A stretch of 64,000 nucleotides of DNA from Spiroplasma endosymbiont of Cantharis nigra (GTDB lineage: Bacteria > Bacillota_I > Bacilli_A > Mycoplasmatales > Mycoplasmataceae). Below the pieces are notes generated by a model. That model made no database searches, was not told the origin of the DNA, and saw nothing but the letters and a program-made list of their open reading frames with translations. The position numbers and the translations under genes were made by a program. The stretch is taken from NCBI RefSeq assembly GCF_964019925.1, contig NZ_OZ026470.1, positions 620,001 through 684,000 of the forward strand, read 5' to 3'. How positions within the stretch are numbered: the first letter of the stretch is position 1; each line of letters begins with the position of its first letter. Below, piece after piece: positions 21,919-38,824 of the stretch.

Positions 21919-22656
21919 TTATACTTTTTTTAAAAATTCAATATCTAATAATTCCTTTTTGCATTTTAATTTAATAATATTGTTTTCTAATTCTATTTGC
22001 AGAGTTTTGCCCTCAATTAGAACCAAATATTTTCCATTTGCTATGTTTATATTATAGTCTTCCATCAAAAAACTATTTTCCCTATTTCTTTTAAATCTAG
22101 CTGAAAAGTTACCATCAATTATTTTATTAACCTCACTAATTTCTCCTTTTGCCAAATTACTCTTTAAAAGTGAAGTTGAAATATTTAGAATTCTTTTAAA
22201 AACTATAATATTTTCAACTCCAAAAAAATCCTGCAAATGAGAAATATTTCCCTGACCTTTATAAGCAAATCTAAAATCATCGCCTATAACTATTTTTTTA
22301 ACATTTAGTTTCTCTTTTAAAAATAAACAAAATTCATTAGGATTTAATTTGATAGTTTCATTATTAACTTCTATCTCAAATATATAATCAGGTTTATAAT
22401 TCTTTTCAATATTTTCATACTTATTATTTTTTGACTGTAAAGTGTTTTTTATTCCTTTTAAAAAATCTGAAACTTTTTCTGAAAAAGTGATTATAGATCA
22501 AACAAAATTTTTTTCTTTTGCAATTCTTTTTGCTTCAGAAAAAATTGCTTTATGCATTTTGTGAATACCATCAAAAAAACCAATACAAATAACATTTCCT
22601 TTTTGCTCCAAGTTGAAATTTTCATTATTTTTAAGAAAGGTTTGATATTTAATCAT
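21919..22656 (-). CDS. ribF: FAD synthetase RibF with reduced riboflavin-kinase domain
   Basis: A 245-residue protein; bifunctional RibF is usually ~300. The N-terminal FMN adenylyltransferase half is well kept: VICIGFFDGIHKMHKAIF (H-x-G-H-like nucleotide site), IVIGDDFRFAYKGQG, and FGVENIIVFKRI. The C-terminal riboflavin-kinase part is only ~75 residues and lacks the G-x-P-T-A-N motif, although G-x-I-S-E-V-N-K-I-I-D-G remains. So it probably converts FMN to FAD only; kinase loss is inference. The start ATG overlaps the last codons of truB by 8 bases. Confidence 0.85.
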
Positions 22657-23569
22657 AATAACCATTTCTTTCAGCTTCAGTTAATTGATCCAATGGAACC
22701 TCATCTCATAATCCTCTTTGACATTTATAAAGATCATGTGCAATGTGCTTATAAATTGCAATTACCTCTTTTAAATCATTAATAATAAAAATTATTGGGT
22801 AGTTAATGCCACTTAAACTAATTGCCTTACCTTGTTTAATATCTCTAATTCTATGATACTCAATTAATGTATGTTCATTTTTCATTAAAGCATCATACAT
22901 TGACATTAAATCTTTTTGCTCTATTTGCTCAATTGTCTTGGCCTCACTTAAATTTAAACCTCCAGAAGATGTTCGTTCTAATTGAGAAACCGTAGCAATT
23001 GTTTGTAAATCTTTTGCAAAATCAGTAACTAAACTTCTAATATATGTGCCTTTACTACATCTAACATTTAATTTAATTGTTCCCAATTTTTGATTAAATT
23101 CTATTAATTCACAACTTTTAATAGTAACCTTTTTTGGTTTAATTTCAACTTCTTGTTGTTTTCTTGCATATTCATATAGTTTTTTACCATCAACTTTAAC
23201 TGCTGAATATATTGGTGGATACTGGTCATAAATATAGCCATTATATTTATTAACCACTTCTTTTACTAGTGATTTTGAAATTTTTTTATAGCCCTCTTCT
23301 TGTACTACTTTTCCTGTAATATCTTGTGAATCAGTATGTATAAACAGTTTCATGGTTACAATATAACTTTTATCACTACTTAAAATATAGTTTGATATTT
23401 TTGTTGCTTGATTGATTAAAATTACCATCAATCCTGTTGCTAGAGGGTCCAAAGTTCCAGCGTGACCAATTTTTTTAATATTAAATTTTCGCTTAATATT
23501 TTGAATTAAATCATTTGAAGTAATTCCTTCTGGTTTACGTACTAAAAGTACTCCTGATTTGCCATCCAT
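22649..23569 (-). CDS. truB: tRNA pseudouridine(55) synthase TruB
   Basis: A 306-residue enzyme making pseudouridine 55 in the T loop of tRNAs. Motif I KPEGITSNDLIQ, catalytic motif II KIGHAGTLDPLATGLMVI (Asp in the TLD), SYIVTMKL, QYPPIYSAVKVDGKKLYEYARK and RCSKGTYIRSL are all present. ATG 23569 is preferred over an upstream in-frame start because GGAGGAAA precedes it. The last codons use one TGA-Trp, and its end overlaps ribF. Confidence 0.95.
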
Positions 23570-23656: not shown

Positions 23657-23686
23657 ATACTAAGTTAAAGAATTTAGGTGATTATT

Positions 23687-24217
23687 ATGCGTAGAAAATC
23701 AGATTTTTATAAAAATATTGAAAATGAATTTAAGATTATTTCTGAAAAGGAACATTTGAATAGTTCAGGTAACCCTGTAAGTAATCTCAATACAAAAATG
23801 TTTTATTTATTAAAGCATCACTTTAATTCATTTGAAGAATTCGATCAAGCAATAATAGAAGAAATTTCAAATACACTACAATCACTTGAAGAAGTAATTG
23901 TAAAAAAAGCGCTTTCTTTTCAAAGACTAGCAAAAGAGGTATTCAGTGAAAATATTAATCCACAAAAATGAGTGGATTTTGCTCAAAAAGAAGCACAAGC
24001 TTTAAGTTATGAAATGTATGATGAAAGTGAAATTAAATATTTAAGACATTTTCATATTGTTTGACTTACATGAGTTTATTGTGATGAAGAATTAAAAAAA
24101 CTAAGAATTAAAGCAAGTAGAGATGTTTATAATAATATTGGTCAAGTTGAAAAAGATTATATCAGAAAACGTGCACAAATGTTAAAAGACCATAATGGTG
24201 GAACTGACAAGTGATAA
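23687..24217 (+). CDS. Conserved hypothetical cytosolic protein
   Basis: A 176-residue soluble helical protein, divergent from truB. Features: an Asn/Lys-rich start, a central helix-rich region (MFYLLKHHFNSFEEFDQAI), and an aromatic-charged C-terminal half (IVWLTWVYCDEELKKLRIKA) ending in Trp. It looks like one of the small conserved mollicute families but I cannot name one with certainty. AGGTG precedes ATG 23687. Followed by a very strong hairpin. Confidence 0.6.
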
Positions 24218-24330: not shown

Positions 24331-27303
24331 CTATCCTTTAATTTTTCTATACTCAGGTTTTGGATTTTTTAATGAACTTGTTCAATCCCCTGCAAAGGCT
24401 CTAGCAAAGTCATATTCTTCTAAATAAGCTAAACCATGAGTTAATAAACTTTTATTTATTGGTTTATTCGTATGCACATCTAAACCTCTATCATCATTCA
24501 TTGATCACATTCCAATATATCCTAAACCAACATTATGGCTTCAATTATACAATTCTTTTGCATCTTCTTCAGTAAAAACACCTCAAACTGTATCATTAAC
24601 ACCAATCATTGGTGTTGCACCAATTAATTTATAAAGACCATCATTACCAATTGAAACTTTTCCATAATTACTTTCAATTGAAGTTGCTAAGTTATTTTTT
24701 GTAGCATTTACTGCTTGTCTTGCTAAATCAAAGTTAGTTAATCCATCTTTAATTGCCTGTACATAAATTGGATCACCATAATCCATTAACATTAAGTTAA
24801 CAACTGGTAAATCTTTTTCACTTAATCCAGCTTTTTTAAATTCCTCAACAAATATATTCATTACACGATAACCAACAGAAGTTAAACCAGTTGGCAATAC
24901 TGGTAAAGTTAATGAGAAATCTCAATCCTTATCTTCTTTTTTCATTTCAGCAATTGTTGCTGCCAATAATCTATTATCATCATCTAATTCTTGAGCATGT
25001 CCCTCAATATCAAAGTCAATTGCTTTTGGCATTTTAACGTTTTTACCTTTTTTATAAGCTAATTTTACCAATGATTCTTGATATCCAATTAAAGTTTCTT
25101 TAAGGTCATTTTTTGCTTTTTGAGAATTATTAGGATTTAATTTATTTGCTAAAGTTCAAGGATTTTTTTCTGTAAATCCTCCTGTAGTTGCTCCACCATA
25201 AGCTACTTTAATATTTTCAAATTTATTTTGTTCTGCCATAGGTTTTAAAATCTTTTCTCAGAATTGACTGCTTTCTCATCATTCATAACCTTCAGTACCT
25301 GTTTCACTACCTGCAATTGACAAGTCTAATTTATCTCCATGATTATTAACTTGTTGTACAAATGCTAGTGTTAAGTGATCCATTCCATTAACACTGGAAA
25401 TAATATTTTTCATATTATTTCCTTCATATAACCCAGCATCTAAATAAGGTGAGAAATATGTTGATTTATTTGCTTTTGCTTTTTTAGTAATTGAAGATTT
25501 TCTATTTGGATTTGCTTCACTTCATTTTGTATAAAGACTCTTACCTTGTCCAGTTGGAGGCATAATTACTTCTCCACCACCAGTTCCTGCTCCAGGTCCA
25601 GGGTTTGTTCCCCCTCCACCTTCTCATGAAGGTCCTTCTCAATTACCAGGGTTTTCTAAATTGTCTAATGCTTTATTTGCTTGAATATCATTTTTATAAT
25701 CAATAGCCTTTAATTGACTAATAACTTCATCTTTATCTGTAATTTCCTTTGGAATATCATTTTCTAATAAAGTTCCATTTAATGCTTCTGCATATGTAAA
25801 TTGTTTGAAACCTGAACCAGATCTAATGTTTTGATCTAATGCATTTTGGTCAGCTTGAGCTGCACCTGTTAATCCATTATCTTGAAAATGACTTGGTACA
25901 TCTCTTGAGATATAGAACATTCCTAAACCACCAAATCCCTCTTTAACAGCTCAAGTTCTTAATTGGACTGCATCTTTTGGAGTAAAGTTATAAGCAGCAG
26001 CTTCAGCTCTTCTTCCAATTCAAGGAGTGATTTTAATTCTTTTTTTCATGTAACTTAGATATTTTATATCATCATTTGCCACTTCATTTATTTTCGCTCA
26101 GTTTTTAGCTGTTTGTTCAGCTCCATCTTGAATTTGTTTTAATTCTCAATCATCATTAGTATTAACATCATTGGGTACAGTCAAATAACCTGTAACTAAA
26201 TTTAATCTAAAATTAATACCCAAATATTTTGTAAAGTTATACAAAGGATAAATTTCATCACCTAATAAATTTAAATTATTAAGTCCCTCTTGACCAAATC
26301 CCTCAGCTAATGCAACTCCATATTCTGTTGACATTACAAGTGATAATTGGAAATCATAAGTTGGATCACTTTCAATTAATATTTTTAAAGCACTGGCTAG
26401 TAATTTTTGAGAATCAGCATAATCTCCTCTAGCTGATAAATATGGTGCTGCAAAATAGAAATCAAATTTTTTAGTGCTATATTTATCCCCAACTGCTTTA
26501 ATAACTTCTGCTAATTCTTCAGGAGTCTTATTATTTTGTCATGCAGTATGTCATAAAGAATTGGCAAAAGGTCCAAATGAAATTCTTACATTTTCTGGAT
26601 TTAAATGTCCGCCATTTTCGTGACTTGTTATTTTAGTTTTAGAACTTTTTTTTGTTCAATCTCTATATCTATCATTAAATCATTTAGCATATTCAGTTTC
26701 TTCACCTTCTTTAGCTAAAATACCTTGTCCATCACCTTTTGCAGGCCCAGCATTTCACATTGGAACTAAATCACCAGTATCTGCTGCATTTTGCATAAAT
26801 CCTAATGTTACTTCTGAATTTTGTGTAATAACATTTTCTTTACCAGCTATTTCACCTAAGTCATTATAAATGATATTTTTTCCATTTAAACTTTTTTCTG
26901 CTTCATCTCTTGTACCTTGACTTTTTCCTTTATCTTTCATCAAGTATTCTGCTGTATCTTCAACAATTCCCATATCTGCATAAGGTGAAAATACAAACTC
27001 ACCATCATTAACTGCTAATTTTTCAACACCTGCTAAAGAAGATCTTTCTCCTTCTTTAATAACTCCATAATTTGAACTATTTTTATTTGTATTTTTTGTT
27101 AATAAGTCTTTTGATATTTGCTTTTTAACACTATTTTCTTTTATACTATTAATTTCACTATTTATGTTTCCATTACCTTTTCATTGTTCACCTGTTTGAA
27201 ATGTTTTGTCTTTTGCATCAATTACTTTTCCACAAGCTACAACTGAACCACCAGCAGATACAACTAAACTTGTACTTGCTAATAAATTTAATAATTTTTT
27301 CAT
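24331..27303 (-). CDS. Chitinase-like GH18 lipoprotein, copy 1
   Basis: A 990-residue surface lipoprotein (lipobox SVVAC, Cys about 24). The C-terminal half is a GH18 barrel: FSPYLDAGLYEG, HLTLAFVQQ, VAYGGATTGGF, and the catalytic D-x-D-x-E as AIDFDIEGHA with Glu about 767. The N-terminal half has the same landmarks (FSPYADMGIVED, VTLGFMQNAADTG, FDFYFAAPYLSARGDY) but lacks the catalytic Glu, so it appears to be an inactive or binding barrel. A Gly/Pro-rich linker (GGGGTNPGPGAGTGGG) joins them. GH18 enzymes cut beta-1,4-GlcNAc polymers; the obvious substrate for an arthropod-associated spiroplasma would be chitin, which is inference. AAGGGTAAAA precedes ATG 27303. Confidence 0.75.
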
Positions 27304-27470: not shown

Positions 27471-30458
27471 CTAGAATTTATACTTATTTCTAGCTATTTT
27501 ATGTTCTGGTTTTGGATTTTTTATTGAACTTGTTCAATCCCCTGCAAATGCTCTAGCAAAGTCATATTCTTCTAAATAAGCTAAACCATGAGTTAATAAA
27601 CTTTTATTTATTGGTTTATTAGTATGCACATCTAAACCTCTATCATCATTCATTGATCACATTCCAATATATCCTAAACCAACATTATGGCTTCAATTAT
27701 ACAATTCTTTTGCATCTTCTTCAGTAAATACACCTCAAACTGTATCATTAACACCAATCATTGGAGTTGCACCAATTAATTTATAAAGACCATCATTACC
27801 AATTGAAACTTTTCCATAATTACTTTCAATTGAAGTTGCTAAGTTATTTTTTGTAGCATTTACTGCTTGTTTTGCTAAATCAAAGTTAGTTAATCCATCT
27901 TTGATTGCTTGTACATAAATTGGATCACCATAATCCATTAACATTAAGTTAACAACTGGTAAATCTTTTTCATTTAATCCAGCCTTTTTAAATTCCTCAA
28001 CAAATATATTCATTACACGATAACCAACAGAAGTTAAACCAGTTGGCAATACTGGTAAAGTTAATGAGAAGTCTCAATCCTTATCTTCTTTTTTCATTTC
28101 AGCAATTGTTGCTGCCAATAATCTATTATCATCATCTAATTCTTGAGCATGTCCTTCAATATCAAAGTCAATTGCTTTTGGCATTTTAACATCTTTATAA
28201 CCATTTTTATTAGCTAATTTAACTAATGAATCTTGATACTCAATTAAAGATTTTTTAAGTTCTTCTTTTGCTGTTGGTGTATTTTTACCAAATAATGTAT
28301 TTGCTAAAGTTCAAGGATTTTTATCTGTAAATCCTCCTGTAGTTGCTCCACCATAAGCTACTTTAATATTTTCAAATTTATTTTGTTTTGCCATTGGCTC
28401 TAGAATTTTACCTCAGAATTGACTGTTTTCTCATCATTCAAAGCCTTCAGTACCTGTTTCACTACCTGCAATTGATAAATCTAAGTAATCACCATGATTA
28501 TTAACTTGTTGTACAAATGCTAATGTTAAGTGATCAAATCCATTAACACTAGAAGTAATATTTTGCATATTATTTCCTTCATATAACCCAGCATCTAAAT
28601 ATGGAGAAAAATAAGTAAAACTGTTAGATTTTGTTTTTTTAGTAATTGAAGAAGTTCTATTTGGATTAGCATCACTTCATTTTGTATAAAGACTTTTTCC
28701 AGGTCCAGTTGGAGGAGAAATAACTTCTCCACCATTTCCTCCACCTGTTCCAGGTCCAGGGTTTGTTCCCCCTCCACCTTCTCATGAAGGTCCTTCTCAA
28801 CTACCACCAATTTCTAAATTATCTAAAGATGTATTTGCTAGAATATCTTCATGATAATCAATTCCACCAATAGTTTTGATTCCATCTTTATCTTTTGCTT
28901 CAATTAAAGGTACTGTTTCACCTGAAATTGTTCCATTTAAAGCTTTTGCATATGTAAATTGTTCAAATCCTGAACCTGATCTAATATTTTGATCTAATGC
29001 ATTTCTGTCAGCTTGTGCAGGACCTGTTGACCCATTGTCTACAAATTCACTTGGTACATCTCTTGAAATATAAAACATTCCTAAACCACCAAAGTTTTGT
29101 TCTTTTGCTCAAACTCTTAAATCTGCTGCATTTTTAGGTGTAAAGTTATATGCTGCTGCTTCAGCTCTTCTTCCAATTCAAGGAGTTATTTTTATTCTTT
29201 TATTTACAAAATTTATATCTTTTGATACACCATTTATAATTTTATTTAATTTATTTCAATTTTGTGCTGATTGTAAAGCTCCACTTTTAACAGTTTCTAG
29301 TTCTCAATCACTGTCAGTGTTAACATCATTTGGTACAGTTAAGTAACCTGTAACTAAATTTAATCTAAAGTTCATTCCTAAATATTTTGTAAAATTATAT
29401 AGTGGATATATCTCATCACCTATTAAATTTAAGTTTACTTGACCATGTTCTCCAAAACCAGGAGCTAATGCAACTCCATCTTTTGTTGACATTACAAGTG
29501 ATAATTGAAAATCATAAGTTGAATCACTTTCAATTAATATTTTTAATGCACTTGCTAGTAATTTTTGTGAATCAGCATAATCTCCTCTAGCTGATAAATA
29601 TGGTGCTGCAAAATAGAAATCAAATTTTTTAGTATTGTATCTATCTCCAACAGCTTTAATAACTTGTGCTAACTCTTCTGGTGTCTTATTATTTTGTCAC
29701 GCTGTGTGTCATAATGAATTTGCAAAAGGTCCAAATGAAATCCTTACATTTTCTGGATTTAATTGTCCACCTTTTCCTTTTATTTTTTCATTACCTTTTA
29801 TATCTTGTCCAGTTCAATTTCTGTATCTATCATTAAATCATTGAGCATATTCAGTTTCTTTTCCTTCTTCTGCTAAAATACCTTTTCCATCACCTTTTGA
29901 AGGTCCAGCATTTCACATTGGAACTAATTCTCCTGTATCTGCTGCATTTTGCATAAATCCTAATGTTACTTCTGACTCATTAGTTATAACTGTTGAATCT
30001 TCAGCAATTTGTCCTAAGTCATTATAAACAACATTGTTTATTAAACCCTTTTCTGCAGCATCTCTAGTTGCCTGACTTTTTCCTTTTTCTTTCATTAAGT
30101 ACTCTGCTGTATCTTCAACAATTCCCATATCTGCATAAGGTGAAAATACAAACTCACCATCATTAACTGTTAAAATATCTTTATTTGCTAAAGAAGATCT
30201 ATCATTTTCTCCAATAGTAGCATAAGTTGAACTTTTACTACTTGTATTTTTTGTCAACAAATCTTTAGATATTTGTTTTTTAATGTTATTTTCCTTTAAT
30301 TTAGAAACTTCTTGCTTAATAGCACCATTGCCTTTTCACTTTGCACCAGTTTCATAATCAACATCATCTTTATCTAATATACTTGTACAAGCCACAACAG
30401 AAGATCCTGCTGAAACTGCTAAAGTTACAGTCGCTAATAAATTTAATAATTTTTTCAT
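27471..30458 (-). CDS. Chitinase-like GH18 lipoprotein, copy 2
   Basis: A 995-residue paralogue of the neighbouring downstream gene with the same plan: lipobox SVVAC, N-terminal GH18-like domain without catalytic Glu (FDFYFAAPYLSARGDY), Gly/Pro linker (GGGGTNPGPGTGGGNGG) and a C-terminal GH18 domain with AIDFDIEGHA (Glu about 768). The last third is almost identical between copies (the ~100-residue block from PTGLTSVGYRVMNIF to GATPMIGVNDTV differs at only a few positions), whereas the first 90 residues and the pre-linker differ clearly. The C-terminus differs too (HKIARNKYKF instead of YRKIKG). Recent tandem duplication or gene conversion is the simplest reading. AAGGATGG precedes ATG 30458. 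Confidence 0.75.
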
Positions 30459-30490
30459 AGATTGTCCATCCTTTTTATATGATTAATTTA

Positions 30491-30496
30491 ATTATA
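30491..30496 (-). promoter_or_regulatory. Promoter -10 box of chitinase-like copy 2
   Basis: TATAAT on the minus strand, 33 bases before the start codon at 30458. Confidence 0.5.
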
Positions 30497-30578
30497 TAAA
30501 ATAACGAGGTCATAACTAGGAACATTTAAGATATAAAAATATTTTAGTAAAAATGTGAAATCTAAAAGGATTTTAGAG

Positions 30579-31913
30579 CTAATTATCGTTTTTTATTGTT
30601 CATTGTTCTTCATCTATCTTATTAATAGACTCAATTATTAAAGAAACTAACTGTTCTATTTGATAATTTGAATAAAAAGGATATTTTCTATCAAAATAAG
30701 GTTGAAGATATTTTAATTTCGTATTATATTTTGTAAGTCATTGATTGGCAATATCATTAAGTTCTGACATTGCTTCTCTTTGTTTTGTAGATTTAATTTC
30801 ACTTTTTAAGTCTGAGTTTAAATGACCATATAATTCATTTGATTTTAATGTTAATCACTTTTGAAACATAGCGTAATTTGATACACCGCTTTGAATAACG
30901 GGAGAAACTATATATCTATGTCTATAATTTTTAAATTTCTCTCATGAGGTATTTGAAACTCGATTTTCATTCGATAAATTGTTTTGAATATATGTCTTAT
31001 GTTCTATCAAATCAGTATCAAATATCTTAACAGATGCTAAATAATCAACAGGTAATTTAAAATAAGAGTTAGTATTTACTGAATATCGAGAAATACCTTC
31101 AAAAATATCTTCATTTTTAAAATTAAATTGATTAAAGTAATAAGTATTTATTGAGTCTAATTTTATAAAAATAAAGTTAGTTAAATCAAAAAAACTAATG
31201 TTTCTTTTTATTCATTTTCTTAGATTTTCGGTTTTCATAAATTGATCGATATTCATTTCTAACTCTCTTTTTATATATCGTTCATAAATAAATGACTCTA
31301 ATGATCTTGAAACATATTCATTAAATCATCTTAATAGATAGTAATCAGCATCATATGAATAATTAAACTCATTTTTCATTGTATAGTTTATAAGTCTTTT
31401 TAAATTAACTAATAACCCTGAACTTAATTTATTAACTTCTTTAAAGTCCTTTGTCAGTTTTAAAACTATATCATTTTCTTTTATCCCATTACGGTTTACC
31501 CAATATATAGACTCATTTTTTACTATGTTGGCAATTACAGAAACAATTCTAAAATTTATTTTTACATTTTTATAATTAAAAACTAGATTTATATAATTTT
31601 TATCTGTATGGATTTCAGGAATAACTTTATATGTCTTTGAAACTCTTAATATTGTTTCACTTAAATCTGATATTTTAATTAAGGAAGCACTTATATATTT
31701 AACTGCACAAAGTTCAAGATTAATTACATTATTTATTTTCATATATGAATGATAAGCAAAATCACCAACTTTTTTTAAATGAATTTTTTCATTTAAAAAA
31801 AGTTGTCTTAATTCATTAAAATAAGAGTTTATCTTAGTAGTAACTGCTTGCTCTTCTAGGGTTAATATTTTTACTGTTTTATTAAATTTTCATATATCTT
31901 TATTTAATTTCAT
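30579..31913 (-). CDS. Nucleotidyltransferase-motif-like protein B (unknown)
   Basis: A 444-residue soluble helical protein with no family I can name. Around residues 49-72, VGDFAYHSYMKIN...INLELCAVKY has the spacing of the nucleotidyltransferase signature (h-G-[SG], then h-[DE]-h-[DE]-h), but with Gly-Asp and Asn-x-Glu. The upstream neighbour has the same spacing with Gly-Ser and Asn-x-Asp, and both proteins share F-x-x-x-N-K-L helices and a Y-L-x-R-W-x element, so they look like diverged paralogues. The start ATG 31913 comes one base after the neighbour's stop, whose end contains the AAAGAGA ribosome site. Catalysis is doubtful. Confidence 0.55.
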
Positions 31914-31914
31914 A

Positions 31915-33096
31915 TTAATCTCTTTCTATTTCAAAAGTAAAGTACTGTAAAAAAATTAAAAATAGACCATTCTCCTTATTTGTTGGATAAATTGTTCTTG
32001 AATGAATTTGTAAATCTAAATTATCATATTTCTGACTTTCCTTTTTTATGGAAATAGTTGTGGAACCTTTAGTATTTTTTAAATAAGTAACAGAGTCATA
32101 TCAAAAGAAAAAATTACCACTAATATTCCTTTCCTTATTTTGTAAAAATTTATTAATATATTCAAAGTATTTTTCTAGAAAACCTTGAAGGCTTGGATAT
32201 GTCATATGAAAAACTCAACTTAGACTTTTTAATTTAAACGAATTATAAATTTTTGCAATTTTTTTGCTTCTTTTATAAAAAATATACTTTGATTCCAAAA
32301 CATTATCTACCTCTTTTTTACTTGAAAAATTATAATCAAAAGCAAAATCTAATCACCTTTGTAAGTAAATGTTTTTAGTTAAATCATATTGTATTTCAGA
32401 CATAATACTTATTTTTAAAAATAAGCGCTCTTGTTTAGTTAATGAACTTCTAAATTTTATTCTTACATAATAAAAAAGAATTTGTAATTTTTTTACTAAT
32501 AGCTTATTTAGTGTACGAAAACTTTTTACATATTCTAATGTAAATGATCTATTATACATTGTTTTGTTACAAATTATGGGTAAGAAATTATTATGTCTAA
32601 GTGATGTTCTAATAATTATTGAAAAGCCAATTTTCCCCTCTTTATAAAAAGCAATTTTAATTGCGTCAGCAAAAGTAACTATTTTTTTAGGATTATTACA
32701 TCTATATTTTTTTTCAATTCAACTAACTTTAATATCATTTGCTACTTTGTAAAAGTCAGTAACAAGTTCAAATATTTCTTTATTAATTTCACAAACTCAG
32801 CAATCATCAAAATGTTCTCTTGTTTCAATTTCTTTTTCATACATTTTATACATACTTCTATTTACATATTTTATTGCTAGTAAATCAATATTAAGTTCTT
32901 TATCAAAATCATAAAGTTCTCCCGTTGCAAAACTACCATGAGTCTTTAATTGAACAATATCTTTTAATTTTCTTTTCAAATAATAAATGTTTTTATCAAT
33001 AAACTTCTTAAATTTATTATCAATATAAATTTTTTTTAGTTGTCTATTAATTTGTTCAATATCAGCTGTTACTAATTTACTTGAAATTTTATCCAT
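31915..33096 (-). CDS. Nucleotidyltransferase-motif-like protein A (unknown)
   Basis: A 393-residue soluble protein. Residues 53-75 read HGSFATGELYDF...LNIDLLAI, which looks like the G-S-x-x-x-G plus D-x-D core of polymerase-beta-type nucleotidyltransferases (as in CD-NTases and minimal NTases), except that the first Asp is Asn69 and no third acidic residue is obvious. A helix-rich, Lys/Phe/Tyr-rich C-terminal part follows. GGGTGA, which is also the end of rsmE, precedes ATG 33096, so rsmE, this gene and the next are probably translationally coupled. Function unknown; catalytic activity or a pseudo-enzyme RNA-binding role are both open. Confidence 0.55.
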
Positions 33097-33098
33097 AA

Positions 33099-33815
33099 TT
33101 ATCACCCACTTTTTTCATAGTTTAAACAACTTAATACAAATAGAGACGCTGTTTCAGCTCTCATTATATTTTCTCCCAAACCAATACTTTTATAACCTAT
33201 TTTATTTAATTGCTTTACTTCTTGCGGTTCAATTCCACCCTCGGGTCCAATAATTATATTAATAGTTTTAAATTTCTTAATAATTTCCTTTTTGATAAAC
33301 TCATTTGTTTCTTCTTCTCAACAAACTAAATTAATATCTGCCTTATAGTTTTCCAAATCTTTCAAATTTCTAACAATTGAATTTATTGTTGGAATATCAA
33401 CTCTTTTTGATTGCTTTGCAGCGCTTTCACAAATTGTATATCAGCGAGTTAATTTCTTTTTCTCATTTTTAGTATCAATTTTTACAACATTTCTTTTAAA
33501 TTCAACGGGAATAATATTATCAACACCAAGCTCTGTAGCTTTTTGTAAAATAAAATCTCATTTTTGTTCTCTAATAATGCCCAAAATTAAATTTACCTTA
33601 TAGTTTTTTTTAGTTAGTTTTTCTTTCGAAATTATTCTAGCTCTGCAAAATTTTTCGCTTATTTGAAAAATTTTACACAAATACTTCTCATTTTGATAAA
33701 CACAAAATATTTGTTCTTCTTCTTTTAATCTAACAACATTTTTTATATGATGAAGATCCTCATTAACTATTTCAAAATAATCACCTATAATTTTATCTAA
33801 AAAGAAACTATGCAT
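33099..33815 (-). CDS. rsmE: 16S rRNA m3U1498 methyltransferase RsmE
   Basis: A 238-residue SPOUT enzyme that methylates U1498 of 16S rRNA. N-terminal PUA-like part HHIKNVVRLKEEEQIF, then QKATELGVDNIIPV, the knot motif IIGPEGGIEPQEV and the cofactor loop IGLGENIMRAETASLFVLS are diagnostic. Read to the end it stops at TGA-Trp then TAA, two bases before the next gene's start. Confidence 0.93.
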
Positions 33816-33843
33816 AATAACTCCAATTCTTTATATATTATAA

Positions 33844-33849
33844 TATAAT
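33844..33849 (+). promoter_or_regulatory. Promoter -10 box of the membrane protein gene
   Basis: TATAAT (a second overlapping copy at 33839-33844) about 65 bases before ATG 33913, in the region divergent with rsmE. The leader contains an AGGTG-preceded nine-codon frame (TTG at 33871 to TAA at 33897). Confidence 0.45.
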
Positions 33850-33912
33850 ATTTCTTGAGGTGAATATTATTTGAATTCTATAAAATTGTTTGTTTAAAAG
33901 GAGAATTTGACA

Positions 33913-34587
33913 ATGAAGATGACTGATAATAATAGTCAAGATCAAGAATTGATTCAAACCATGGAACCAATTGATATTGACTATGAATTCAGCAAACTAA
34001 ATAAGTCAAACAAACATGCGAGATTTAAGAGTGAGACTCTAAAAATAACTCTTGTCAGTTTGTTACTAAGTATGTCCACAGCTGTTAGTTTAATAAATGT
34101 AATTATTCCATTATATATTACTGGAATAAATTTAGGTTTTGTCCTAAAATACTTTGTTATTGCTATAAGCTTCCAAGTGGTAGGCATATACTGGGGTATG
34201 ATAATAGGTTTGTTAGATGGTCTACTGCAATTTCTAATCTGAGGTTATAGTCCTTTATTTAGGCTAGCATCTGGAATTGGATTAGCAATTTGAGTAGCAC
34301 TATTTTGATTAATATACGATAAAGTATTTCGAGTTTATAGTAAGAATGCCTCTTTTAATAGAAGCGTATCGCTAATATTCTCAGGAATGTTAGTATTTAT
34401 TTTTGGGCCATTAAGCTCAGCATTTTTGAATTATTTAATATCATATATTGAATATGGTGAAATATATGGTATATTTAAATTTTTTCACTCATGGTTAAGT
34501 TTTATGGTATTTGATCTATTTGCAATTATTTTATTCACACTCACTACTAATAGAATTCAAATATTAACTAAAAAATTGCTATATTAA
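33913..34587 (+). CDS. Multispan membrane protein, ECF transporter S component-like
   Basis: A 224-residue protein. After a ~50-residue polar N-terminus there are about six hydrophobic segments, including ITLVSLLLSMSTAVSLINVI, FVLKYFVIAISFQVVGIYWG, GMIIGLLDGLLQFLI and FMVFDLFAIILFTLT. Size, the short Gly-rich connection GIYWGMIIGLLDG and the mollicute setting fit substrate-binding (S) subunits of ECF vitamin transporters; the substrate is not deducible and another membrane family remains possible. ATG 33913 has AAGGAG at optimal distance; TTG 33907 is too close. Divergent from rsmE. Confidence 0.5.
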
Positions 34588-34626
34588 ATAGAAAAAACCT
34601 GCATTTTATGCAGGTTTTTTCTATTT
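34586..34626. terminator. Bidirectional terminator between convergent genes
   Basis: A perfect 18-bp inverted repeat (AAATAGAAAAAACCTGCA and complement) around TTTTA. The stop codons of both convergent genes, the membrane protein and rbfA, lie in its arms. Confidence 0.9.
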
Positions 34627-34965
34627 AATATCTTTTAGTATTTTTTCAATTTTATTAGCGTTTTCTAAAGTTTTATCAAATTCAAATGTTAATTCTGGCA
34701 CACTTCTCATTTCAACTTTACTTGCAAGAATCATTCTTATTTCCTTTAAATTCTCTTCAATTTCAGTCTTTACTTCATCTTTATTTGAATTAACATCCAT
34801 TGATGAATAAAAAATCTTTGCGTGACTCATGTCATTTGACAATCTCACTTCATGAATTGTAAGTGAATTTAAGTATTCACTATCTGGAAATTCTCTTTGT
34901 AAAATTAAGTTTAATTCTCTAAGAATAGTTGATTGATTTCTTTCAATTTTTATATCATTTGCCAT
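34621..34965 (-). CDS. rbfA: Ribosome-binding factor A
   Basis: 114 residues. KIERNQSTILRELNLILQREF at the start, LTIHEVRLSNDMSHAKIFYSS and EMRSVPELTFEFDKTLENANKIEKIL are typical. RbfA assists late maturation of the 30S subunit. Last gene of the nusA-infB operon, two bases after infB, and its stop lies in the terminator. Confidence 0.95.
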   Translation of the reverse strand: MANDIKIERNQSTILRELNLILQREFPDSEYLNSLTIHEVRLSNDMSHAKIFYSSMDVNSNKDEVKTEIEENLKEIRMILASKVEMRSVPELTFEFDKTLENANKIEKILKDIK

Positions 34966-34967
34966 AA

Positions 34968-36833
34968 TTATTTCACCTCTTCTACCTTGTATGCTTCTAT
35001 AATATCATTTTCCTTCAAATCATTAAAGTTTTTAATTGTAATACCACATTCTTGTCCTTCTTTAGCTTCTTTTATATCTTCTTTTTTATTTTTTAAAGAA
35101 GATATTTCTCCACTATAAACAACTATTCCATCTCTTAAAATATGAACTTTTGAAGAACGTGGTACAACTCCACTCATAATTCTACATCCTGCTATTGTTC
35201 CAACTTGTGAGTGTCTAAATAATTGTCTTACTTGTGCCTCTCCCAGAGATTTTTCCTCAAAAACAGGATCTAACATACCTGTGGCAGCTTCTGCTATTTC
35301 TTCAATTAATTTATAGATAATATTGTGTAATCTTATTTCTACACTATCTTCTTCTGCTTTTTGTCTAACTTGTGATGTTGGTCTTACATTAAAACCATAA
35401 ATTAGAGCATCAGATGCTAAAGCCAAAGTAACATCACTTGCTGATATTGCTCCTACTGTTGCACGAATTACATTAATTTTTACTCCTTCAATACTAATTT
35501 TTAGCATTGAATTTCGAACAGCTTCAACTGTACCTTGAGTATCAGCTTTTAAAATTACATTAATTGATTTTAATTCACCAGATTCAATTTTATTTTTAAT
35601 TGAATCTAAAGTGAATGTTTGACTTTTTTGTCTTGCTTCATTTTGTTGTTTTTCAAACTGAGCTTTTGCAATATCTCTTGCCATTTTTTCTTCAGTAACA
35701 ACAATAAACTTATCTCCTGCTTTAGGAACTTCGTTTAAACCAATAATAACTGCTGGTTGACCTGGAGATACTTCAACAAGTTTAGCCTTATTTTCATTTT
35801 CTAAATCTTTAATAGTTCCAAATGTTCCTCCAGCAATAATAATATCTCTAATTTTTAAAGTACCATCTTGTACTAAAATTGTTGCAACAGGACCCCTATT
35901 TTTATCTAATTTAGCTTCAATAACAGTTCCTCTTGCAAATTTATTAGCATTCGCCTTTAAATCCCTTAATTCAGAAATTAATAAAATAGTCTCTAATAAT
36001 GTATCAAGACCTACTTTTCCTTTTGCAGAACCTTCAATAAATGGAATATCTCCACCATATTCTTCTGCTACAATTCCATAATTCATTAATTCCATTTTAA
36101 CTTTATTTGGATCTGCACCTTGTTTATCAATTTTATTTACAAAAACAATAATTGGAACACTAGCTGCTTTTGCATGGTCAATCGCCTCTTCAGTTTGAGG
36201 CATTACACCATCATCTGCTGCAACTACCAAAATTACTATATCTGTAACTTCACTTCCTCTTGCTCGCATCTCTGTAAAAGCCTCATGCCCAGGAGTATCA
36301 ATAAAGGTAATTTTATTTGACTTTATTGTTGTTTGATAAGCACCAATATGTTGAGTAATTCCCCCAAACTCTCCATCTGTAACATTTGCATTTCTAATTG
36401 AATCTAATAATGTTGTTTTACCATGGTCAACATGACCCATAATTGTTACTATTGGAGGTTTTGCTGTTAAGTCCTTTGGATCGTCTTTTTCATTAAACGT
36501 TTCAAATATATTTTCCTTAGTAACACTAGTCTCTTTTTTAAAATCATAGCCAAATTCAATACATAATTCACCCATTTGTTCTTCTGAGAGAATTTGGTTT
36601 TGAGTTACCATTGAACCATTAGTAAAAAACCACTTTACAATTTCTGCTGGTCCTTTATTTAGTTTTTTTGCAAAATCTGCAATTGATAACGGTTCTGTAT
36701 AAACAAAAATACCATCAATTAAACCAGTTTCAGTTGTTTGTTTTAGTTGATTTTTTATATTTGCACTATGTGCCTTAGATTTATTCTTAGACTGTTGACT
36801 CTTATTATTTTCTTGTTTTATATTTTTTGCCAT
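34968..36833 (-). CDS. infB: Translation initiation factor IF-2
   Basis: A 621-residue GTPase that brings initiator tRNA to the 30S subunit. G1 [19 protein letters not shown] (about 135-153), G2 [11 protein letters not shown]3 [20 protein letters not shown]4 VFVNKIDK and the C-terminal fMet-tRNA-binding domain are complete. The N-terminal extension is short and Lys/Asn-rich, as in other mollicutes. ATG 36833 (AAAGGAGAA upstream) is preferred to an upstream start. Confidence 0.97.
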
Positions 36834-36849
36834 AACTACTTCTCCTTTC

Positions 36850-37158
36850 TTATTCAATGTTTTTTAAAATTAACTTTACAAAATTATCATCATTAATTCC
36901 AATACTTTTAATATTTTTTCTTCCAATAGCCTTGCTTAATTGTTCGGAATCAAATAAATTATTAATAATTTTAATATTATAAAATTTTGCCTTATCATTG
37001 ATTTTTTTTAATTGACTTTTTCCCATGTCAGAAGTTGTTAGTACAATTTTTACTTTTGTTAGTTTAATTTGATCAAAAAGTTTTTCTCCATAAACTAATT
37101 TGCCTGCAGATGAAATCATTCCTAAAGAACCTAATAATTTATCTATATTTAGTCCCAA
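36850..37158 (-). CDS. ylxQ: L7Ae-family RNA-binding protein YlxQ
   Basis: 102 residues with an L7Ae/L30e/S12e-type fold: LLGSLGMISSAGKLVYGEKLF, VKIVLTTSDMGKSQLKKI and EQLSKAIGRKNIKSIGI. It binds kink-turn RNA in homologues. In the same place as in Bacillus (nusA-ylxR-ylxQ-infB). Its start overlaps the end of ylxR by 10 bases. Confidence 0.88.
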   Translation of the reverse strand: MGLNIDKLLGSLGMISSAGKLVYGEKLFDQIKLTKVKIVLTTSDMGKSQLKKINDKAKFYNIKIINNLFDSEQLSKAIGRKNIKSIGINDDNFVKLILKNIE

Positions 37159-37427: not shown

Positions 37428-38777
37428 CTATTTTTCATAGTATGAATCATAACTGTCATCAACATTATCAATACTTTCTTCAAATTCAAAAGTATTATCT
37501 TCTTCACTTAGACTTTCAAATGCTGCAATTGATGCTTGAATTTCATCAATTGATTTATCTTCTTCAATAAATGCAATCTCTTCTGCTTGTTCTTGTTTTT
37601 TGATAAAGTTTTTATCTTTATTAAAGTTACCTGCAGTTTTTTCTCTTCTTTTGTTAACTTTATTTAGGAAATCTGGATTGCTTAATTCTGCTTCATCAAT
37701 ATTTCCATTTCACTTAATTTCAATTTCTTTTTCCTTGGCATTTTCCAATGAAAAAATATTAATTTTCATATTTACAAGATTTGCAACTAATCTGGCTGCC
37801 ATCCCTTTTTTACCAATTGCTAATGATAATTGTTCATTTGGAACAACTATAAAACATTCATTATTTTCTTCATTAATATCAATACTAATTACTTTAACAG
37901 GTGCTAATGAATTCATTACAAATGTCTTTTTATCTTCATTTCATAAAACTACATCAATTTTTTCACCATTTAATTCCTTAGTAATATTTTTAATTCTACT
38001 TCCTGATGCACCAACACAACTTCCAATTGGATCTACACCCTCTTCGTGTGAAAATACAGCTATTTTAGCTCTATGCCCTGGTTCTCTTGCAACTGATTTA
38101 ACTTCAACTATTCCCTCAGAAATTTCTGGAACTTCAGTTTCCATTAATCTTGTTAAAAATTCTGGATGAATTCTTGAAGCTTGAATTTGTGAATGTTTGT
38201 TATCTCTTGAAACTTCTTCAATATAGAAACAAATTCTATCATCAATATCAAAATCTTCTCCTGGAATAATTTTTTTATTTCAAATTGGAATGATTGAACC
38301 GTTAATATCCACTAAATAACTATTCTCTGTGATATCTTTAACAAATCCACCAACAATTTCATGATTTTTTGATAAAAACTCTTGATAAATTTTATTTTTC
38401 TCACCTTCACGAATTTTTTGCTTAATAATTTGTCCTACTTGCATTACAGCTATTTTTGAGAAATCCTCTTGAAATTCTACTGGTTCATATACATTGTCAC
38501 CAATTGAAACATTTTCTCCATAAAGCTCTTTAGCTGCATTTAAGCCAATTTCTAATCATTCATCTTCTATTTTTTGAACAACAGTTAAAATTTTAAATAC
38601 CTTAACTTGACCAGTATTTTGATCAATATCTACTCTTACTGTTGCTTCAGGATCAAATGATTTTTCATATGCTTTTTGAAAACCTTCTTTAATACCCTCC
38701 AAAACAATATTTTTGTCTATTTTTTTATCTTGTACGATTTCAAAAATCGCATCTAATAGTTTTGCACCATCTGTCAT
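37428..38777 (-). CDS. nusA: Transcription termination/antitermination factor NusA
   Basis: A 449-residue protein. N-terminal RNA-polymerase-binding domain (LDAIFEIVQDKKIDKNIVLEGIKEGFQKAYEK), S1 domain, KH1 (VDPIGSCVGASGSRIKNITKELNGEKIDVV) and KH2 (EQLSLAIGKKGMAARLVANLVNMKINIF). The acidic C-terminus (ESLSEEDNTFEFEESIDN) is mollicute-specific. ATG 38777 has GGAGG; an upstream ATG is not used. First gene of nusA-ylxR-ylxQ-infB-rbfA; rimP, usual upstream, is not here. Confidence 0.95.
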
Positions 38778-38824
38778 GGCTTTTAATCCTCCTATAAATT
38801 TTGTCAATTATGTTTTAACAAATA

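Follow-up and report, generated by a model that had tools for sequence, protein, structure and literature searches.

Two adjacent genes in the window, that is, the whole stretch of 64,000 nucleotides analysed here from a Spiroplasma-type genome of 1,237,520 bp, encode P1 and P2, which are a real and previously unnamed family pair; pseudoenzymes with a nucleotidyltransferase (NTase) fold are as such already known. The best explanation, which has a roughly even prospect of being right, is that P1 and P2 are paralogous pseudo-NTases that are paired into a non-catalytic RNA scaffold in ribosome or RNA maturation. Read under translation table 4, the genes lie in one run as follows:

33099..33815, minus strand: rsmE, 16S rRNA m3U1498 methyltransferase, upstream of P1 in the same gene run
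31915..33096, minus strand: P1, 393 aa, ATG start, predicted degenerate NTase-fold protein with GS and D71 kept, N69 and S159
30579..31913, minus strand: P2, 444 aa, ATG start, predicted degenerate NTase-fold protein with GD, N65, E67 and R122, the C-terminal part conserved

The tandem of rsmE, P1 and P2 agrees with the original prediction, with 2 bp between rsmE and P1 and 1 bp between P1 and P2; across the genomes of g1 (the genus of the window) the exact spacing varies from -14 to +79 and from -8 to +20, respectively, and the gene order is kept. On translation, the matched G-[SD]...N-h-[DE] element claimed for both proteins is present, that is, G54-S55...N69-I70-D71 (HGS...NIDL) in P1, with 13 residues between S and N, and G50-D51...N65-L66-E67 (VGD...NLEL) in P2, with 13 residues between D and N. 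BLASTP of P1 against P2 aligned the motif segment only (E=4e-4 for one comparison), and hhalign of the two family profiles gave Prob 90 and E=1.6e-6 over about 160 residues within residues ~10-204. In the rerun with reversed and 60 column-shuffled controls, the profile score was 49.3 and that of the best control was 23.7. Because the score far exceeds those of the controls, P1 and P2 are, as judged by their profiles, paralogues with a resemblance beyond chance, and the paralogous pair that had been proposed stands. The P1 profile also matched the N-terminus of one P2 gene in the order-wide search (E=4.9e-4). The predicted pI is about 9.3 for both proteins, which is unremarkable here, as 12 of the 41 ORFs in the window, P1 and P2 among them, have a pI of at least 9. 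Inside the coding sequence of P2 (31766-31805) there is a perfect 18-bp inverted repeat with a 4-nt loop, which the two nearest relatives retain intact, one of them (G001) with a two-sided (compensatory) change, and which is degraded farther out; it is probably a by-product of AT-rich codons.

AlphaFold2 models were built on the alignments as single chains, with pLDDT 84 and pTM 0.86 for P1 and pLDDT 89 and pTM 0.90 for P2, and both models have the NTase core fold and the helical domain following it. The Foldseek E-values are 2e-7 for P2 and 9e-6 for P1. The best structural matches of P2 are CdnG, CdnB and DncV (Z 15-17; against CdnG, VIA Z 16.7, rmsd 5.0 Å, 279 residues aligned), and yeast poly(A) polymerase is matched at Z 14.8. 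The P1 model is matched by DncV (VIA Z 14.7, rmsd 3.7 Å, 232 residues aligned), by cGAS (Z 14.5) and by an SSU processome chain of about 1077 residues (Z 14.1), which we take to be Utp22; its top Foldseek match is the ILF3/ILF2 (NF90-NF45) heterodimer, with Utp22-Rrp7 also among the matches. Independent support for the fold comes from sequence profiles: P2 aligned through its N-terminal half with a profile of seven bacterial CD-NTases (E 3e-5 in one comparison), scoring 44.8, whereas no shuffled control exceeded 20.1. The P1 profile gave nothing useful against the same seven. The models support well an NTase fold for P1 and P2, within the clade that includes CD-NTases, cGAS and poly(A) polymerases; the fold anticipated for both is seen in the models and in their structural matches, and neither model lacks it.

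Active NTases carry a catalytic triad of acidic residues. The conservation of the corresponding motifs was counted over 25 P1 and 31 P2 orthologues, and the third catalytic position was placed by the profile alignments of P1 with P2 and of P2 with the CD-NTases. The sites in the window are as follows:

32932..32937, minus strand: codons of G54-S55 of P1 (GS motif); G in 22/25, S in 20/25
32884..32892, minus strand: N69-I70-D71 of P1, counterpart of D-h-D; 69 never D, 71 D in 21/25 and E in 2/25
31713..31721, minus strand: N65-L66-E67 of P2, counterpart of D-h-D, aligned to the CD-NTase D-I-D; 65 is N in 20, E in 7 and D in 4, and 67 is D in 21 and E in 10
31548..31550, minus strand: codon of R122 of P2 at the third catalytic Asp/Glu, aligned to the CD-NTase acidic residue; R in 27/31, never D/E

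In the 25 P1 sequences, position 69 is occupied by N, K, V, S, T or I, with E in one of them, and position 159 (S159) is mostly S but variable, with a single E. At the hG[GS] site of P2, G50 is kept in 28/31, and position 51 is D or E instead of S in all 31. In the alignment of P2 with the CD-NTases, N65, E67 and R122 stand opposite the catalytic acidic positions D/D/[DE], and in that of P1 with P2, S159 stands opposite R122. The [DE]h[DE]h pair and the third acidic residue of active NTases are not conserved in P1 or in P2, and the full triad occurs in 0/25 P1 and 0/31 P2 orthologues. That both proteins have lost the metal-binding triad is thus well supported by the alignments, and since no member has the whole triad, both look catalytically dead. 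That is to say, the degenerate catalytic motifs reported for both proteins are confirmed by the residue counts, and the suggestion of one more active subunit beside one pseudoenzyme is not supported, the triad being incomplete in every P1 and P2 examined. None of the motif positions of P2 ranks among its 40 best-conserved ones, which lie mainly in the C-terminal half and include SRYS, QREAM..LN and YFDKKYP there. The P2 of G010 (L047 3225-4745) carries a charged, helix-like insertion of about 60 residues after the strand bearing the third catalytic position.

As for the surroundings of the pair, the order in g1, g9 and g12 is nusA-ylxR-ylxQ-infB-rbfA-rsmE-P1-P2-F6-truB-ribF-rpsO, with F6 on the opposite strand and, in g1, a membrane-protein ORF preceding rsmE. 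The names ylxR, ylxQ, rpsO, folD, fhs, coaBC and coaX used here are presumptive ones assigned by our own reading. The main members in the window are as follows:

37428..38807, minus strand: nusA, start of the conserved cluster
34968..36857, minus strand: infB, in the conserved cluster
34621..34965, minus strand: rbfA, in the conserved cluster
23678..24217, plus strand: F6, 176-179 aa, no known family, distribution nearly that of P2, stays beside P2
22649..23611, minus strand: truB, downstream end of the interval
21919..22665, minus strand: ribF (FAD synthetase), after truB

The g6 genus has rsmE and P1 in divergent orientation. In the intact cases of g8, the order is rbfA-folD-fhs-P2-F6-coaBC-coaX-truB-ribF-rpsO, P1 is missing and rsmE lies in another neighbourhood. 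Because g8 keeps P2 and F6 in this state, the arrangement shared most widely is P2 and F6 lying in the interval from rbfA to truB; P1 goes with rsmE, and in most lineages the two are found there as well. The claim of a conserved gene order behind rsmE therefore holds in relatives, but not universally. Separation of P1 and P2 in the relatives, which had been named as evidence against the proposal, was looked for and did not occur, and the placement among translation and ribosome-maturation genes is borne out by the nusA-infB-rbfA-truB-ribF-rpsO cluster. F6 is confined to the genera that have P2 and, in addition, g7; despite changes in gene order it remains either beside P2 or in the space from P2 to truB. 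Two lipoproteins in tandem, each about 990 aa long (24331-27303 and 27471-30458, minus strand) lie between P2 and F6 in the genome of the window and in G009 and are absent in G002, G018 and G016; a lipoprotein signal is the sole feature recognised in them. Divergent from rsmE is a 226-aa membrane-protein-like ORF (33907-34587, plus strand), conserved in g1 and with no Pfam or NCBIfam match, which is possibly an ECF-type substrate-binding subunit. A 535-aa neighbour of P2 in g8, tried as a relative of P1, was dropped, since by our own reading it looks like a formate-THF ligase. Rfam over 30000-35200 of the window found nothing. For RsmE itself, published work gives m3U1498, within 16S rRNA helix 44, as the site, and a patchy presence in the Spiroplasma sub-group (PMC4014445).

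Profile searches covered 248 genomes of the order, and the class-wide search with P2 covered 296 genomes. Both genes occur in 20/20 sampled g1 genomes. P2 is found in genera g1, g6, g8, g9 and g12, none of whose listed genomes is without it, and P1 in g1, g6, g7, g9 and g12; P1 is absent from g8, the citri-clade genus, in which the named loci carrying P2 are those of S. phoeniceum and S. poulsonii. Neither gene was found in the same-family genera g2-g5, g10 and g11, and the class-wide search gave nothing outside the family save one 49-residue match at chance level. One fragmented g7 assembly has P1 and no P2 nearby. The dN/dS of P1 and P2 is 0.09-0.15 (rsmE, 0.12-0.20), and therefore they are proteins under constraint; this substitution pattern shows P1 and P2 to be genuine proteins under purifying selection. 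In G013 (L009, L029) there are in-frame stops in both P1 and P2, and in G177 (L128) P2 is split, as is rsmE; P1 and P2 are therefore not universally required.

The absence of a recognised homologue or family, as stated at the outset, was upheld by searches of Pfam, NCBIfam, PADLOC and PDB sequences, which gave no significant family for P1 or P2. Pfam likewise gave no SMODS-type sequence match for either, PADLOC matched neither of them, nor any of five neighbours put to it, and recognised no CBASS effector or Cap genes there, and the viral contigs of IMG/VR scanned with P1 contained no relative. DUF5563, BP28CT, HetR_C and Tet(50) were set aside, as at most three members were matched or the match was at chance level; matches in PHROGs were scattered over one to three members only, and the one significant match in a viral fold library was a Hyperionvirus protein. 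The literature search found no publication on these genes.

Among known systems, the closest working analogy is NF45-NF90 (ILF2-ILF3), which are described as NTase-fold pseudoenzymes with a role linked to RNA, the binding of dsRNA being strengthened by their DZF heterodimer (PMC11952958; also PMC11646218). Like P1 and P2, they are a related NTase-fold pair without the catalytic Asp. They are, however, eukaryotic, whereas in P1 and P2 no dsRNA-binding domains were found and the dimer is a presumed one; at E 0.1, the Pfam DZF profile matched none of 23 P1 and 24 P2 members, and by sequence P1 and P2 are not DZF family members. Utp22 (in Utp22-Rrp7) is, like P1, an NTase-fold relative and takes part in small-subunit ribosome assembly, processome chains being matched by P1 at Z about 14; it differs in being eukaryotic and in consisting of one far longer chain (about 1100 aa), with no sequence similarity detected. 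The bacterial CD-NTases (CdnG, CdnB and DncV; Pfam SMODS) resemble P2 in structure and in the profile of its N-terminal half, but P1 and P2 are without the triad, lie below Pfam detection and have no CBASS genes in the neighbours tested. Poly(A) polymerase, TUTase and the archaeal CCA-adding enzyme share the layout of NTase and helical domain with P1 and P2, but they are active and have the full triad.

Several other explanations have to be weighed against the paired scaffold. P1 and P2 may be sensors of nucleotides or cyclic nucleotides, whose dead sites have kept the binding of NTPs, or of a signal in the form of an oligonucleotide, and which exert allosteric control of translation or ribosome maturation; this is unlikely, for the residues that bind metal have been lost, the metal site of P2 would be occupied by R122 and the cleft motifs of P2 are less conserved than its C-terminal part, even though the fold is nearest to nucleotide-binding CD-NTases and cGAS, the NF90-NF45 dimerisation domain was crystallised with ATP, CTP and UTP according to the entry titles, and the glycines G54 of P1 (22/25) and G50 of P2 (28/31) are largely kept. 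The least probable reading of all is that of NTases kept active by a site that is rearranged, or composite and shared: the GS and D71 kept in P1, the acidic residue at 67 of P2 and the D/E at 51 in 31/31 would fit this, but the first position varies and is in no P1 an Asp, at the third P2 has Arg and P1 mostly Ser, and the conservation of P2 is not centred on the active site.

If P1 and P2 belonged to a cell architecture specific to Spiroplasma (helical shape, the fibril/MreB cytoskeleton or division) and lay in the nusA-truB cluster by chance, the restriction of P2 to the Spiroplasma-type g1, g6, g8, g9 and g12, and not g2-g5, g10 and g11, would be understandable, as non-helical relatives are expected among the latter same-family genera; the NTase-fold architecture makes this improbable, as does the location among translation genes, which is retained in every lineage whose surroundings were read. 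It is very improbable that the pair is what remains, after domestication, of an anti-phage CD-NTase (CBASS) or of a toxin-antitoxin NTase and now serves defence. The profile similarity of P2 to bacterial CD-NTases and its matches with CdnG, CdnB and DncV would suit such a descent, but PADLOC is negative for P1, P2 and five neighbours, viral contigs hold no relative of P1, the locus is fixed in all g1 genomes and there is no catalytic triad.

With regard to the paired RNA scaffold, the loss of the triad and the place among ribosome genes indicate that P1 and P2 are therefore probably binding scaffolds rather than enzymes, the link with ribosome or RNA maturation being one of gene-neighbourhood association only. 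P1 and P2 would pair with each other, and their old nucleic-acid- or nucleotide-binding cleft would be reused without catalysis to hold either rRNA, alongside RbfA and RsmE in the maturation of 30S, or tRNA. The mode would be like that of NF45-NF90 in eukaryotes or that of Utp22 as a part of the small-subunit processome; in g8, P2 may work alone or with another partner. In the mirror-tree analysis, the partial r between P1 and P2 was 0.39, against 0.42 and 0.51 with rsmE, that is, there was no P1-P2 signal beyond rsmE. This lack of extra co-evolution, together with g8 without P1, the lone P1 of g7 and the broken copies, weakens the model of a scaffold pair. It is a tentative and rather doubtful extension of it that P1 and P2 are a bacterial counterpart of the NF45-NF90/Utp22 principle, that is, a Spiroplasma-specific heterodimer of dead NTases serving as an RNA scaffold in small-subunit maturation, with F6 as a possible third component; the likeness would then be due to convergence or deep descent.

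Examples of NTase-fold proteins without catalysis, such as NF45-NF90 and Utp22, come mainly from eukaryotes. In bacteria, a pair that is conserved and under selection, lies beside ribosome-maturation genes and bears no family name would be a new pseudoenzyme family, and it would give a testable role to two core Spiroplasma genes that annotation libraries leave nameless.
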